Part shown: one piece after another, positions 27,883-52,457 of the stretch
Numbering within the stretch: position 1 is the first letter of the stretch
How the letters are laid out: each line of letters opens with the position of its first letter
From: Fluviispira vulneris
GTDB taxonomy: Bacteria; Bdellovibrionota_B; Oligoflexia; Silvanigrellales; Silvanigrellaceae
NCBI RefSeq assembly: GCF_014281055.1
Contig: NZ_JACRSE010000001.1
Coordinates: 496,001-560,000, forward strand
Length of the DNA stretch: 64,000 nucleotides
Reading direction: 5' to 3'
Notes under the pieces: generated by a model
What the model was told of the DNA's origin: nothing
Seen by the model: the letters and a program-made list of their open reading frames with translations, nothing else
Databases searched by the model: none
Translations under genes and position numbers: made by a program

Positions 27883-28896
27883 GTGGTAAATATCGGCAGA
27901 CCCATGTTTCAAGTGGGTAGCAACATTTTTGAACTGATTGAATTCACTGCGACGAAGACAGGTGTTCCTGGTGCTTCTGACCGCAAAACCCCGATATTAT
28001 ATGGAGTCAATGTTGCTAAAGTGAGAGAAGTTATCAGGCTTCCCACTATTGTACCCTGCTTAACCAATGCGCCAGAAGTTCTAGGAGTCTTTAATCTCAG
28101 AGGACTGCCTATCCCCGCAATCCATCTGGCAAAAGCTTTAGGTTATGATGAAGAACCCGTGACACCTACAAGTCAAGTCATAGTGACAGAGTTTTCAAGC
28201 CGCCGTGCGGGTTTCGTTGTTGCAGGTACTCGAAGGATTCGGCGGGTGAGCTGGGATAAAGTTTTACCTCCGTCAAGCGATGCGTTTAATACAATCACAG
28301 GAATGATGCTGATCGAAAATCAAGATTTTATTTTTATTCTCGATTTTGAACGCATTCTTTTAGACATAGAAGGACGCAGCACAGGCCAAGGATCTTCTGG
28401 TTACAGTGCAAACGAAGGAATGATCCAACCTGCAGGAGGAGGAGCACAAGCTCCACCCGCTCAGCAAGGAGGAGCACCGGCAGGGAAAGGAACAAAACCA
28501 CTTATCCTGGTTGTCGATGACTCGCCTACCGCTCGGCGTGCGATTTGTGATATGCTGCGGGGTATGCAGCTTGATATAATAGAATATACAAATGGTGAAA
28601 GTGCTTGGAAAGACTTGCTGAACGCTGAAGAAGGCTCAGATCTGAGTAAAGTGCAACTCATTGTCAGTGATGTGGAAATGCCAAAACTAGATGGTTATTC
28701 TCTAGTAAAACGTATCCGCGGCAACGAAAAACTGAAGAAAATGCCAATTATTCTTCACTCCAGTTTAACAGGAGATGTTAACCGCGATCGTGCTAAGCAA
28801 GCAGGAGCAGATGCTTATGTTGGTAAACTGAATCGCAAAGAAATTGTGGAAGCCCTCAAAGCAGCACTCCCACCCACTTGGACTGGCGCAGCATGA
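27883..28896 (+). CDS. cheV: CheV-type chemotaxis coupling protein (CheW domain plus receiver)
   Basis: The 337-aa protein has a CheW-like domain (about 10-165; GVNVAKVREVIRLP and GVFNLRGLPIPAIHL), a Gly/Ala/Pro/Gln-rich linker (165-205) and a receiver domain with the full acceptor set: Asp212-Asp213 in VVDDSPTARR, Asp263 in SDVEMPKLDGY and Lys315 in VGKL. CheV couples chemoreceptors to CheA and tunes the coupling by phosphorylation. Start is GTG at 27883 with AGGGAG before it. The 3' end overlaps the next cNMP-fold gene by ATGA, indicating translational coupling. No cheA, cheY or receptor gene is adjacent. Confidence 0.94.
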   Translation: MVNIGRPMFQVGSNIFELIEFTATKTGVPGASDRKTPILYGVNVAKVREVIRLPTIVPCLTNAPEVLGVFNLRGLPIPAIHLAKALGYDEEPVTPTSQVIVTEFSSRRAGFVVAGTRRIRRVSWDKVLPPSSDAFNTITGMMLIENQDFIFILDFERILLDIEGRSTGQGSSGYSANEGMIQPAGGGAQAPPAQQGGAPAGKGTKPLILVVDDSPTARRAICDMLRGMQLDIIEYTNGESAWKDLLNAEEGSDLSKVQLIVSDVEMPKLDGYSLVKRIRGNEKLKKMPIILHSSLTGDVNRDRAKQAGADAYVGKLNRKEIVEALKAALPPTWTGAA

Positions 28897-47613: not shown

Positions 47614-50367
47614 ATGCTCAATTCAAAAAACAAGATTATTCACCGCTATTTATCCAATGGGATGGAAATTTATTTACACCCTTCGGATTTTGCTCCCATC
47701 GTTTCTATACAAGTGCTCGTCAAAACAGGCTCATTGGATGAAGAAGAGTTTGAAGGAGGTGTAGCGCATGTTCTTGAGCATATGTTATTTAAAGGAACAA
47801 AAAAATTTCCTGAAACAGGACAAATAGCATCCACTGTCGAATTTGAAGGTGGAGATATCAATGCTTATACCACATTCGATCACACAAATTACCACCTCAC
47901 TGCACCTGCTGCATTTGCTAAAAAAGGCGCTGAACTTTTACTCGATGTTGTGCAAAATAGCTTACTCGATAAAGATGAACTGTCCCGAGAACTCGAAGTT
48001 GTCATCGAGGAAATAAGAAGAAGTAGAGACAATCCCAATGCCGTCGTTTCCCACAATTTATTTTCCCTCTTTTATGAGGGAACAAATATGGCTAGGCCGG
48101 TGATTGGCTATCAAAATGTTGTTGAAAAATTCACACGAGAAACGGTCCATAATTTTTATAAAAAATGGTACACACCCAACAACATGATTTTTATTGCTTC
48201 TGGTGATTTTGACTCTCAAGATATGTATAATTATCTTGAAAAACTCAGTTATGAATTTCCACCCAAAACTGTGCCACAACGCACTCGACCAGCGCAGTTA
48301 AGCCATACACAAAAAAAGAATCCTACAGCAAAAATAGAGCGTGGCCCTTGGCAAGAAGCGCGTGTCCAATTGGCAACCTTGGCTCCTAACTTAGAAAACT
48401 TTGACATGCCAAGCTGGGATGTATTTGCTTCGATATTGGGCGAATCTGATTCCTCTCGTTTGATCCGTATTTTACGAGAAGAAACTCAGCTTGTCACAAG
48501 TATTGATTGCTCCTGTTACACACCAAAATACCCCAGCGGTCTTTTGGGAGTTGGCTTTTTTGGCATGGCACACAACTGCTTAGCAGCCTTAAAAACAATC
48601 GTACAGGAAATTCGCCGCTTGGCTGAAGTTCCACCGACCCACGAAGAGCTCAATCGCGTACTCAATACTCTCAAAGCACAGCGTATTTATTCGCGAGAAA
48701 GTATGGATGGTATTTCAAGAAGTGCTGGTATGAGCTTGCAAACTTCACAAAAAATGGAATTTGAAAACTTTTATATGAATTCTGTTTCGAAAATAACCAC
48801 AAAAAACATTCAAGAAATAGCTCAAAAAGTTGTCAATCAGTTAGAAGCAGGACATTTTCATATATCAGTTGCTTTGGGCAATGAAACTCTTCCTGATGTC
48901 ACTGAAAAAGATTTTATAGAATCAGTGACACATGCTGTCAATATGACACATCACAATACTGAACCCATTGAAACAAGCTTACAAAAGAGCAACAGTCCCG
49001 ACTTCAGTAAAGATAACTGGATAGATACTTACGACTTAAAAGTGTCTAAATTGAACACGGATGTAAAACAAATTGAAATCCCATTGCCTTTTGGGAAAAT
49101 TCTCAAAATCAATTATCGCGAATCAAAAAGATTGCCCATCACCAGCGCAATGTTGGTGCTTAAAGGCGGACTTGTATATGAACCACAACATAAAAATGGC
49201 GTGGGTGGCTTGACCGCAAGCATGCTGACAAGAGGAACTAAAAGACAAAATTATCGAAAATTTATTGATGAACTCGAAGACAATGCCTCGAGCATCAGTG
49301 CTTTTTCATCTCGGGATCTCTTTGGCATGCGCTTTGATTCCATTAGTGAAAACAGCCTACGCACTGCACAAATGATGCTTGACTGTCTGTTCCGTCCTGA
49401 ATTTTCAGCAACCGAATGGCAACGCATTCATAAAGAAACTCTTGAAATTCTTGTTGCACAAAAAGACAGTCCATCTGCACGTTTGGCACGTATTTCTCAA
49501 CCTCTGTTATTTCCAAATCATCCATATGCATTATCAGGAATGGGTACAGAGAAATCACTAAATAATGTCACTCGCGAAGATGCACAGGAATTTTGGGCAA
49601 ATCTTTTTCACGCCAAGGAATTCGTTTTTTCTATTTCGGGTGAGTTCGATCTCCGTTCTTTTGTTAACTTAATTGAGTCTGAATTTAAAACATTCTTAGA
49701 TTTAAATTATGTAGAAAAAAGTAGGCCTGAGCCTGTTTTTGCCCCACATCCTGAAGAGACAGCTGAACAAGTTGGCTTTGACGAGTTGAAAAGAGAACAG
49801 GCGCATATCATGTTGTCCTTCCGTTCTTTTTCTCTCTCCGACTCAAGACGCACAGCTCTTGAACTTGCAGCAAATATTTTGGCAGGACAAGGTGGTAGGC
49901 TCTTTTTAGACCTGCGTGACAAGCGCTCCCTTGCGTATGCCGTCAGTGCGTCACAGACACCCAATCTACTTGCAGGAGTCTTTACAACTTATATAGCAAC
50001 TTCTGCTCACAAAGCTAAAGAAGCTATTGAAGGTTTAAAGGAACATATTGAAAGACTTGCCTGTGAACCTCCGAGTGAAGAGGAGCTATTGCGTGCACAA
50101 CATTCTGTTTTAGGGTCACAAAGCATAGAATCTCAGCACTATAACTATCAAACATCACAACTTGCGATGAGCGACGTATACGGTTTGACTTTCGATAACT
50201 TTTTGCGCTTTGCAGAACGTGTCAATGCGGTCACTCCTGAAATGGTCAGTAACGTGCTAAAGTCTTTAATATGTGAAAATTTACCAATCATAAGTATTGT
50301 GGGACCAAAAGAAACTTGGATTCCACAAAAATCCGACAAGGTCCTGCAATGGAATTTAACCCGATGA
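47614..50367 (+). CDS. M16-family zinc metallopeptidase, two-domain (pitrilysin type)
   Basis: The 917-aa protein carries the inverted zinc motif HVLEH (His52, Glu55, His56) in GGVAHVLEHMLFKGTKKFPE, with the third ligand Glu at 132/133 in EVVIEEIRRSRDNP. A second, inactive M16 half begins near residue 490 (IPLPFGKILKINYRES), as in two-domain members that form a closed chamber. No signal peptide is visible, so it may be cytoplasmic. Start ATG 47614 follows GAGGA. It overlaps no gene and lies between gltX and the kinase-like gene with gaps of 9 and 8 bases. Confidence 0.93.
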   Translation: MLNSKNKIIHRYLSNGMEIYLHPSDFAPIVSIQVLVKTGSLDEEEFEGGVAHVLEHMLFKGTKKFPETGQIASTVEFEGGDINAYTTFDHTNYHLTAPAAFAKKGAELLLDVVQNSLLDKDELSRELEVVIEEIRRSRDNPNAVVSHNLFSLFYEGTNMARPVIGYQNVVEKFTRETVHNFYKKWYTPNNMIFIASGDFDSQDMYNYLEKLSYEFPPKTVPQRTRPAQLSHTQKKNPTAKIERGPWQEARVQLATLAPNLENFDMPSWDVFASILGESDSSRLIRILREETQLVTSIDCSCYTPKYPSGLLGVGFFGMAHNCLAALKTIVQEIRRLAEVPPTHEELNRVLNTLKAQRIYSRESMDGISRSAGMSLQTSQKMEFENFYMNSVSKITTKNIQEIAQKVVNQLEAGHFHISVALGNETLPDVTEKDFIESVTHAVNMTHHNTEPIETSLQKSNSPDFSKDNWIDTYDLKVSKLNTDVKQIEIPLPFGKILKINYRESKRLPITSAMLVLKGGLVYEPQHKNGVGGLTASMLTRGTKRQNYRKFIDELEDNASSISAFSSRDLFGMRFDSISENSLRTAQMMLDCLFRPEFSATEWQRIHKETLEILVAQKDSPSARLARISQPLLFPNHPYALSGMGTEKSLNNVTREDAQEFWANLFHAKEFVFSISGEFDLRSFVNLIESEFKTFLDLNYVEKSRPEPVFAPHPEETAEQVGFDELKREQAHIMLSFRSFSLSDSRRTALELAANILAGQGGRLFLDLRDKRSLAYAVSASQTPNLLAGVFTTYIATSAHKAKEAIEGLKEHIERLACEPPSEEELLRAQHSVLGSQSIESQHYNYQTSQLAMSDVYGLTFDNFLRFAERVNAVTPEMVSNVLKSLICENLPIISIVGPKETWIPQKSDKVLQWNLTR

Positions 50368-50375
50368 GGTAAGGA

Positions 50376-51848
50376 ATGGGTCATACACTGACATTTGAGA
50401 ACTCAAATCAGAATGACCTAAATTTCTTTTATTTTTTTCAAAATTCAAAATATCCTCTGTTTATTCTAAAAAAAAATGGCATTATATTAAAAGCAAACTC
50501 GGCAGCAAATAAATACAATTTAAAAGAAAATACGGATTTATTTGCATTTGTCATTGAATTAGAGGCTCAGCAAGCAAAAGAAAAATTAAAAAAACTTGAA
50601 AATGAAGAGCCGCTCAGTCTTTCCGTAAAAATTGATTTCTCATCATTTCCCAATTTTCTTTTGCAAACTTCTTGGAAAGTCATACTTTTAGATGCAGAAC
50701 ACTTCGCCTTTTCTTGTGAAGAATTGCATCAATATTCTCCAGAAGATTTCCTTTTGCACAAAGGACTCATGCGTATTATTTTTGACAGCGATCCCAATTT
50801 AATTGGGATTGTGAATCGTATTGGACACTATTTATTTGTTAACAAAGCTCTTTATGATTTTGCTGGAAAAAATAATGAAAATAATATAGAGAAACTCAAT
50901 AAATTAATAGAAGAGGGAGAAATATCCTTACCAGGCAACGATTTACACGATAAAGAAATCGTGCAAAATCCCATTTCAGAAGTTGAGCTCACCACCGATC
51001 ACTCTGGCAATCCAATCTGGTTTGAAAACACTAAAGTTCCAATACAATTGCCATTTGGCGAGCAGGTGCAATTGATAATCTCTAAAAATCTTACTAAATG
51101 GAAAGTTACAGAAAAGAAACTCGAAGACATCCATGAAGTTTTAGATTATTATCGAAAAATTTCATATTTAGGAGAAATCCTTGCGAAAACAGCAGTCGAT
51201 CTTCGTAATCCTTTAACTTTAATTCTGAACTTCATGAATAATGTGCGACAAAATAAAAATGAAATCAATACGCTTGAATTGGATACTGTGCAGATATCGT
51301 TGCAAACTATAGATAGTTTCATAGAAAAAATAGAAAAATCCTTCAGAGTCATGCGAAGTATTGCCAAAAACAATGTTTCTGTGCGTGTTGAAAATATAAA
51401 AATAAGTGATTTAATATCAAACACTCTTAATGTCTTAATCGATAAACTCAAAGCATTTGATATTAAACTAAACATAAATTATTCAGGGCTTGAAGAACAA
51501 GAAATATCATGTCAGCCAATAAATTTTAATATTGCTTTTCGATTTTTATTTTTAAACAGCATTGACTCTATCATAATTAGCCAAACAAATGAAAATAGAC
51601 TTATAGAAATAAATATTTCTAAAAAGGAAAAAAGAATATCTATAGATTTATCTAACAATGGAGCACAAATATTAGAAGAGTATAAAAATAAAATTTTTGA
51701 ACCATTTTTTACTACAAAACCAACAGGTAAGGGCAGTGGTCTCAGTTTAAATATTGCAAAAAATATAATAGAACAAATGAATGGAACAATAACTTTTCAA
51801 TCAAATGAGAAAAAAACTACTTTTACAATAGAATTGCCCTGTTTATAA
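50376..51848 (+). CDS. PAS-containing histidine-kinase-like protein lacking the phosphoacceptor His
   Basis: The 490-aa protein has a PAS-like start (FFYFFQNSKYPLFILKKNG), a second PAS domain (about 130-240), a dimerisation helix pair and a C-terminal HATPase domain (about 380-490). In the H-box the expected HE(I/L)RNPL reads VDLRNPL: the acceptor position is Val274. In the ATPase part the N-box Asn394 (LNSIDSI) and the GKGSGLSLN loop are present, but the G1 Asp is Asn427 (NNGAQI). No signal peptide or membrane helix. It looks like a pseudokinase or a sensor acting without autophosphorylation. GAGG lies seven bases before the ATG. Its last 6 bases overlap the convergent exonuclease. Confidence 0.8.
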   Translation: MGHTLTFENSNQNDLNFFYFFQNSKYPLFILKKNGIILKANSAANKYNLKENTDLFAFVIELEAQQAKEKLKKLENEEPLSLSVKIDFSSFPNFLLQTSWKVILLDAEHFAFSCEELHQYSPEDFLLHKGLMRIIFDSDPNLIGIVNRIGHYLFVNKALYDFAGKNNENNIEKLNKLIEEGEISLPGNDLHDKEIVQNPISEVELTTDHSGNPIWFENTKVPIQLPFGEQVQLIISKNLTKWKVTEKKLEDIHEVLDYYRKISYLGEILAKTAVDLRNPLTLILNFMNNVRQNKNEINTLELDTVQISLQTIDSFIEKIEKSFRVMRSIAKNNVSVRVENIKISDLISNTLNVLIDKLKAFDIKLNINYSGLEEQEISCQPINFNIAFRFLFLNSIDSIIISQTNENRLIEINISKKEKRISIDLSNNGAQILEEYKNKIFEPFFTTKPTGKGSGLSLNIAKNIIEQMNGTITFQSNEKKTTFTIELPCL

Positions 51849-52457
51849 AGTAACATACCGACAGACTGAAGATACAAAAACATCTACACCATGCTTAGCT
51901 ATCATCGACTCTGCTAAATATAAAGTCATAAAAACATCATCGAGAGCTCTATGTTCTTTTCCAACATAATTAACACCATACTGCTTCGCCAATTCATGCA
52001 ATTTGCCTTTATTGGTTTTATTTATTTTCTTATGCAGTTCATATAAATCCAGAGCATTTTGAAATTGTGGTAAGGGGAATTTATATCTTTTATTTTGAAT
52101 TTGTGCAGCAGGGAGATCGGAGCTTAAAATATTATAGCCAAGAACGACACAGCCATTGGCTATTTCAATAAATTCTTTTGCCCAAGTGTCTCCCCATGTG
52201 GGAAATGTCTCTAACTTTTCTGGAACCACTCCTGTTAATTTTTTAACAAATTCTGTTATCTCAGATTCTGGATTCACATAAGAAGAGTGGATAGAAACGT
52301 TACCGTTCAAATCAACTTTTGCAATTGCAACCTCGAAAATCCCTCCTAAAGTTGATGTAGGATGAGTTGAAGTTTCAAAGTCGATCACAGCCACTGGTTT
52401 TTCAAATAAACAAGCCAAAAATCCAAGTTCTGGACAGTATTGAGAGATTGCTTGCAT
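51843..52457 (-). CDS. DnaQ-like 3'-5' exonuclease (DEDDh)
   Basis: The 204-aa protein has the DEDDh set: AVIDFETST (Asp26, Glu28), VLGYNILSSDL (Asp114) and EHRALDDV (His169, Asp174). The order and spacing fit RNase T/DnaQ-type exonucleases, which remove nucleotides from 3' ends of DNA or RNA. It is preceded by three bases from the ketosynthase gene, so the two are co-transcribed, although no shared pathway is evident. It is not the polymerase-fused form; no polymerase gene lies nearby. Confidence 0.85.
   Translation of the reverse strand: MQAISQYCPELGFLACLFEKPVAVIDFETSTHPTSTLGGIFEVAIAKVDLNGNVSIHSSYVNPESEITEFVKKLTGVVPEKLETFPTWGDTWAKEFIEIANGCVVLGYNILSSDLPAAQIQNKRYKFPLPQFQNALDLYELHKKINKTNKGKLHELAKQYGVNYVGKEHRALDDVFMTLYLAESMIAKHGVDVFVSSVCRYVTL

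Follow-up and report, generated by a model that had tools for sequence, protein, structure and literature searches.

Loss of the phosphoacceptor histidine in a kinase-like protein

The phosphoacceptor His was lost at least twice at one gene within a single genus, and the reading frame of that gene remains under selection. One copy lies in the window, i.e., the whole 64,000-nucleotide stretch of Fluviispira vulneris DNA analyzed here, where an intact open frame with Pfam domain matches (positions 50376–51848, + strand) encodes a histidine-kinase-like protein of 490 amino acids without this His. The protein was tentatively interpreted as a derived pseudo-histidine kinase, apparently a soluble orphan sensor acting by protein contact, and our confidence in this interpretation falls slightly short of even. 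The frame starts 8 bases past ORF 47614–50367 (+ strand), which was taken to be an M16 peptidase-like gene, as in the first-pass annotation. This neighbor is conserved upstream in the orthologue loci, and the earlier placement of the kinase-like gene directly after it was confirmed.

The domain bounds of the protein were set by eye on the alignment. Residues 15–131 (50418–50768) form an N-terminal PAS-like region, with sub-threshold PAS matches found only in the orthologues P0002 and P0006. Residues 132–242 (50769–51101) form a second PAS-like region, for which the PAS_4 match was sub-threshold here and above the cut-off in P0004. These are followed by the linker with a degenerate DHp region (residues 243–336, 51102–51383) and by the CA (HATPase) region (residues 337–490, 51384–51845), all on the + strand. 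In the Pfam scan, HATPase_c matched residues 391–488 at 60.9 bits (cut-off 26.4), and HisKA reached 14.9 bits (cut-off 26.9). Compared with a canonical HisKA histidine kinase, the protein thus has the HATPase_c match above the cut-off but neither the H-box His nor a HisKA match above the cut-off. An AlphaFold2 model from a three-sequence alignment had a mean pLDDT of 43.5 and was too poor for use.

The H-box reads AVDLRNPLT, with Val274 at the phosphoacceptor position (codon GTC, 51195–51197, + strand), and that of three orthologues reads AHEINNPLT. The substitution had been reported in the first-pass annotation, together with the caution that a sequencing error at these bases would overturn it. 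Such an error was ruled out, as GTC requires two base changes from CAT or CAC and the His is also missing from the sister species and from two further genomes. Phosphorylation at a different His would be the companion explanation, and His254 is indeed present upstream; however, it lies in the linker, outside the H-box, and is Gln in the sister. That either error or another His accounts for the missing residue was therefore considered highly improbable.

The remainder of the HATPase domain, earlier described as preserved, was preserved only in part. Asn394, the second N-box Asn (51555–51557, + strand), is invariant across all six aligned orthologues, as are the F-box FEPF and the three glycines of G2, which reads GKGSGLSLN in the window protein. 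However, the first N-box Asn is replaced by Phe390 (51543–51545, + strand); this position is Tyr in the sister and Asn in G007 and in the His-bearing orthologues. The G1 box does read NNGAQI, with Asn427 (51654–51656, + strand) at the position of the G1 Asp. This Asn is no mark of His loss because all three His-bearing orthologues carry it as well, and it was rejected as such; among the six aligned proteins, it occurs in five, with Asp in the sister, and the ThkA chain 3a0r reads 'nsgppi' when aligned at G1. Accordingly, the earlier proposal of a pseudokinase was retained on the grounds of the lost phosphoacceptor and the selected frame, and its G1 argument was dropped. Its further suggestion of nucleotide binding may hold, with Asn394, the F-box, and the G2 glycines in favor and the missing first N-box Asn against, and action by allostery, as it also proposed, would be conjecture. 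With a kinase fold, no phosphoacceptor, and retention by selection, the protein falls in the loosely defined class of pseudo-histidine kinases.

Orthologues and number of His losses

Eight genomes of the genus were compared, including that of the window (G000). A full-length relative was found in seven, two of which have a gap in the DHp, and none was found in the eighth (G001, 72% complete). In all seven, the gene has one and the same pair of neighbors, M16 and a gene that is presumably ketoacyl-synthase-like. The H-box states were read from six aligned proteins, with the copy of G004 judged separately and left out of the HisKA scan. The phosphoacceptor His is present in three of the seven (G002, G003, and G006, AHEINNPL), replaced by Val in G000 (AVDLRNPL) and by Phe in the sister species Fluviispira multicolorata (G005, TFDIKNPL), and lost with the H-box part of the DHp in G007 and G004. 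The latter is a Spirobacillus cienkowskii MAG, and G007 is near-identical to it, hence S. cienkowskii-type. Thus, Val274 is not fixed among the orthologues, a check that the first-pass annotation had suggested, and the orthologues with His that it had named as a refutation do exist, in three of the seven. Val is a state derived on a single branch; the sister has Phe instead, and a third lineage carries a deletion.

The three His-bearing orthologues occupy the same place and are similar to the window protein over the full length, with 43–46% identity. They differ from it in keeping the H-box and the first N-box Asn, and their HisKA scores were 43.0, 41.7, and 44.2 bits. No HisKA match at E <= 0.1 was obtained in the Pfam scan for the His-less proteins of G005 and G007. 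G000, G005, and G007 have an intact frame. The frame of the G004 copy (L016) is broken in its N-terminal third, and the near-identical G007 copy is intact; the break may be an assembly error or early decay. Separately, a gene at 51843–52457 (− strand), presumably exonuclease-like by its sequence, overlaps the 3′ end of the kinase-like gene by 6 bases and, among the seven loci, is found at this place only in G000 and F. multicolorata, i.e., the genomes with Val and Phe.

In a wider search, 16 of 58 genomes of the phylum matched at E <= 1e-45. The N-terminal half was matched only in the seven genomes of the same genus, and the others among the matches listed covered the DHp-CA part. No source outside the genus was found in the 58 genomes of the phylum. 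A search of genome contigs matched two loci, and a search of viral contigs gave no match. In other genera of the family, the M16 gene is present and adjoined by gltX where the flank shows. These flanks (L079–L084) were read by eye over about 1500 bases, less at contig ends, and no kinase gene was seen after M16 in the five other-genus genomes with a whole M16 gene (L079–L083) or in L084, where M16 is in two pieces.

The number of losses was assessed with a partitioned species tree of 13 genomes built from the GltX, M16, PfkB-type, and RpoB proteins, in which G001 is represented by RpoB only and parts are missing for some others. In this tree, G000 and G005 stand apart from a clade joining (G002, G003, G006) with (G004, G007), with a support of 91; an earlier two-gene tree had left the root open (support 50). 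The arrangement with the His-less genomes as sisters was rejected (AU p = 1.08e-8, SH p = 0.0029), and the other two of the three arrangements stand (AU 0.918 and 0.083). The rejected arrangement is the sole grouping that permits a single loss, and a single loss was thereby ruled out. As regain of the H-box was taken as unlikely, the His was therefore lost at least twice. A single loss common to G000 and G005 is the parsimonious choice; their residues differ (Val and Phe).

Constraint on the domains and selection on the frame

The DHp is the most conserved domain in the His-bearing pair G002/G006 and the least conserved in the His-less pair G000/G005. The identities of the N-terminal, PAS, DHp, and CA regions were 60.7, 71.8, 80.9, and 65.6%, respectively, in the His-bearing pair, and 65.0, 72.7, 48.9, and 56.5% in the His-less pair, although the latter is the closer of the two by M16 identity (84.7% vs. 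78.1%). The second PAS-like region is the best conserved part in the His-less sisters and about equal to that of the His-bearing pair. When columns conserved in one pair only were counted (His-less vs. His-bearing), the DHp gave 7 vs. 37 (p = 5.3e-6), the CA region 22 vs. 36 (p = 0.087), the PAS region 18 vs. 17 (p = 1.0), and the N-terminal region 28 vs. 23 (p = 0.58). Because the bounds were set by eye and one pair of each kind was compared, this test is a strong hint rather than a rate estimate that constraint has shifted away from the DHp in the His-less pair.

The kinase-like frame remains under selection. Neutral substitution was simulated with the base composition of the window at five distances (0.1 to 0.7 per site), and at every one of them the frame survived in 0 of 500 copies. 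The NG86 dN and dS between G000 and G005, values near saturation, were 0.267 and 1.411 for the whole gene, 0.381 and 2.082 for the DHp, and 0.301 and 1.014 for the CA region (dS for PAS was not computable), and 0.103 and 1.602 for M16. The ratio of the kinase tip branch to that of the species tree was about 7.0 (G000), 8.0 (G005), and 8.3 (G007) in the His-less lineages vs. about 3.5 (G006) and 2.8 (G002) in the His-bearing ones. This acceleration, from about 3 to about 7–8, would fit a slow decay in which the kinase is dispensable and the loss of His, the divergence of the DHp, and its deletion are steps toward loss of the gene, and so would the broken frame of the G004 MAG. However, the three other His-less frames are intact, simulated neutral copies lost theirs in 500 of 500 cases at every distance, and the PAS identity is on par with that of the His-bearing pair. 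Slow decay was accordingly regarded as unlikely.

One short part of the DHp departs from its general divergence. In the three His-bearing proteins, 75 DHp positions are invariant, and both His-less sisters retain 22 of them. The block NPLTxIL (residues 278–284, 51207–51227, + strand) retains six of seven such positions vs. 16 of 68 elsewhere in the DHp (Fisher p = 0.002, for a block picked after the data were seen). The block includes Asn278 at H+4, which agrees with the T/N phosphatase criterion and is Asn in the sister G005 as well. A kinase-dead phosphatase, in which Asn278 and bound nucleotide would allow dephosphorylation of a response regulator, is consistent with the retention of this Asn and block in both sisters. 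A precedent is the His-to-Ala allele of PdhS2, predicted to be kinase-negative and phosphatase-positive, which complements the deletion according to an excerpt of PMC7003649. On the other hand, DHp constraint is otherwise gone in the His-less pair, and the stretch after the block varies among G000, G005, and the His-bearing proteins. Moreover, the His itself participates in the phosphatase action of HK853 (excerpt of PMC5727384), and the genomes with a deleted DHp could not use such a mechanism. A phosphatase role was thus deemed improbable.

Comparison with known systems

Kinase-like proteins that function in the absence of phosphotransfer are exemplified by DivL and NifL, as described in excerpts of PMC4211667, PMC11509896, and PMC12540587. 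Similar to the window protein, DivL of Caulobacter carries PAS domains before a DHp-CA core and has its phosphoacceptor His replaced (Tyr550), and the DHp-CA part is often absent from its divergent relatives (excerpt of PMC4211667). DivL keeps a conserved DHp patch, through which it reads DivK~P; in the present case, conservation between the His-less sisters is lowest in the DHp. The window protein was not filed under DivL because the constraint pattern gives no support for a conserved DHp surface.

NifL, as portrayed in parts of PMC11509896 and PMC12540587, has tandem PAS domains and kinase-like H and GHKL domains, shows no kinase or phosphatase action, and gives its output by contact with NifA. 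The NifL model TIGR02938 matches residues 244–479 of the window protein at 55.7 bits, but this is far below its cut-off of 242.45, and the protein was therefore not filed under NifL. No NifA-like gene was recognized beside the kinase-like gene when the ORF list of the window was read by eye.

A ChrS variant of Corynebacterium glutamicum offers a laboratory example of an inactive kinase that still influences signaling, with ChrS/HrrS as the pair (excerpt of PMC9491836); in contrast to the natural loss in the DHp here, it arose from a laboratory frameshift in the CA domain. This precedent, together with the paralogous His-bearing kinases of the same genome, would suit a protein that pairs with an active paralogue and tunes it. 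However, the next best matches (L053, L060, L049, and L054) share the DHp-CA part only or are 26–29% identical, and it is the DHp, usually the dimer interface, that is least conserved. A heterodimer partner was hence held to be rather unlikely.

Other HATPase proteins of the genome

All 43 HATPase_c matches of the genome were viewed and sorted by eye. They comprise 25 HisKA-type proteins with the H-box His and two without it (the window protein and L097, with Gln), ten of CheA type, one GyrB-like, one MutL-like, and four without a clear H-box. Ten CheA-type proteins were thus counted in a genome of 3.6 Mb. The second His-less HisKA-type protein (L097 280–1512, G000:C1:735279-736508) has 410 amino acids and reads GISQEINNPL. 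Its relative in F. multicolorata (67% identity) keeps the His, and the G2 loop is altered in both; six other aligned relatives of the genus have the His and G2 loops closer to the normal form.

No receiver gene was recognized beside the kinase-like gene within the window. The nearest Response_reg match, and the only one in the window, lies in a CheW-receiver fusion at 27883–28896, which is presumably of CheV type.

Implications of the His losses

The pseudokinase reading is based on four states, namely His, Val, Phe, and a deleted DHp, at one syntenic place, together with the rejected single loss, the shift of constraint away from the DHp, the selected frame, and the lack of a recognized receiver gene beside the kinase-like gene in the window. 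Loss of the His on at least two occasions, in a gene that was kept, suggests a present job other than phosphate transfer. The ancestor would have been an orphan sensor histidine kinase between the M16 peptidase gene and the ketoacyl-synthase-like gene, which turned into a pseudokinase on each loss of the phosphoacceptor. In the derived pseudo-histidine kinase, the N-terminal PAS-like regions may still sense a ligand or partner, and the DHp remnant would serve mainly as a dimerization helix bundle. The CA domain may bind nucleotide weakly or be structural only, and, like NifL or DivL, the protein would give its output by direct protein contact rather than by phosphotransfer. It is possible, although doubtful, that the N-terminal half, which is specific to the genus, gave even the ancestral kinase a job independent of phosphotransfer, so that the His could be dropped more than once. 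Two points run counter to the contact-sensor reading: the fast evolution in all His-less lineages and the broken frame of G004 also fit decay, and pure PAS output would not require the kept block with Asn278.

Natural pseudo-histidine kinases such as DivL are already known. No paper on this locus was found in the literature searched, those on Silvanigrella with histidine kinases being judged by title. If the ancestral kinase did already have such a phosphotransfer-independent job, the genus would offer a natural series (His, Val, Phe, and DHp deleted) in which a sensor kinase turns, at least two independent times, into a sensor that works purely by protein contact. As active-looking and inactive forms share one syntenic place with at least two losses, it becomes possible to ask which surfaces stay constrained without phosphotransfer; the present data point to the PAS-like regions and to one short block of the DHp rather than to that domain as a whole.
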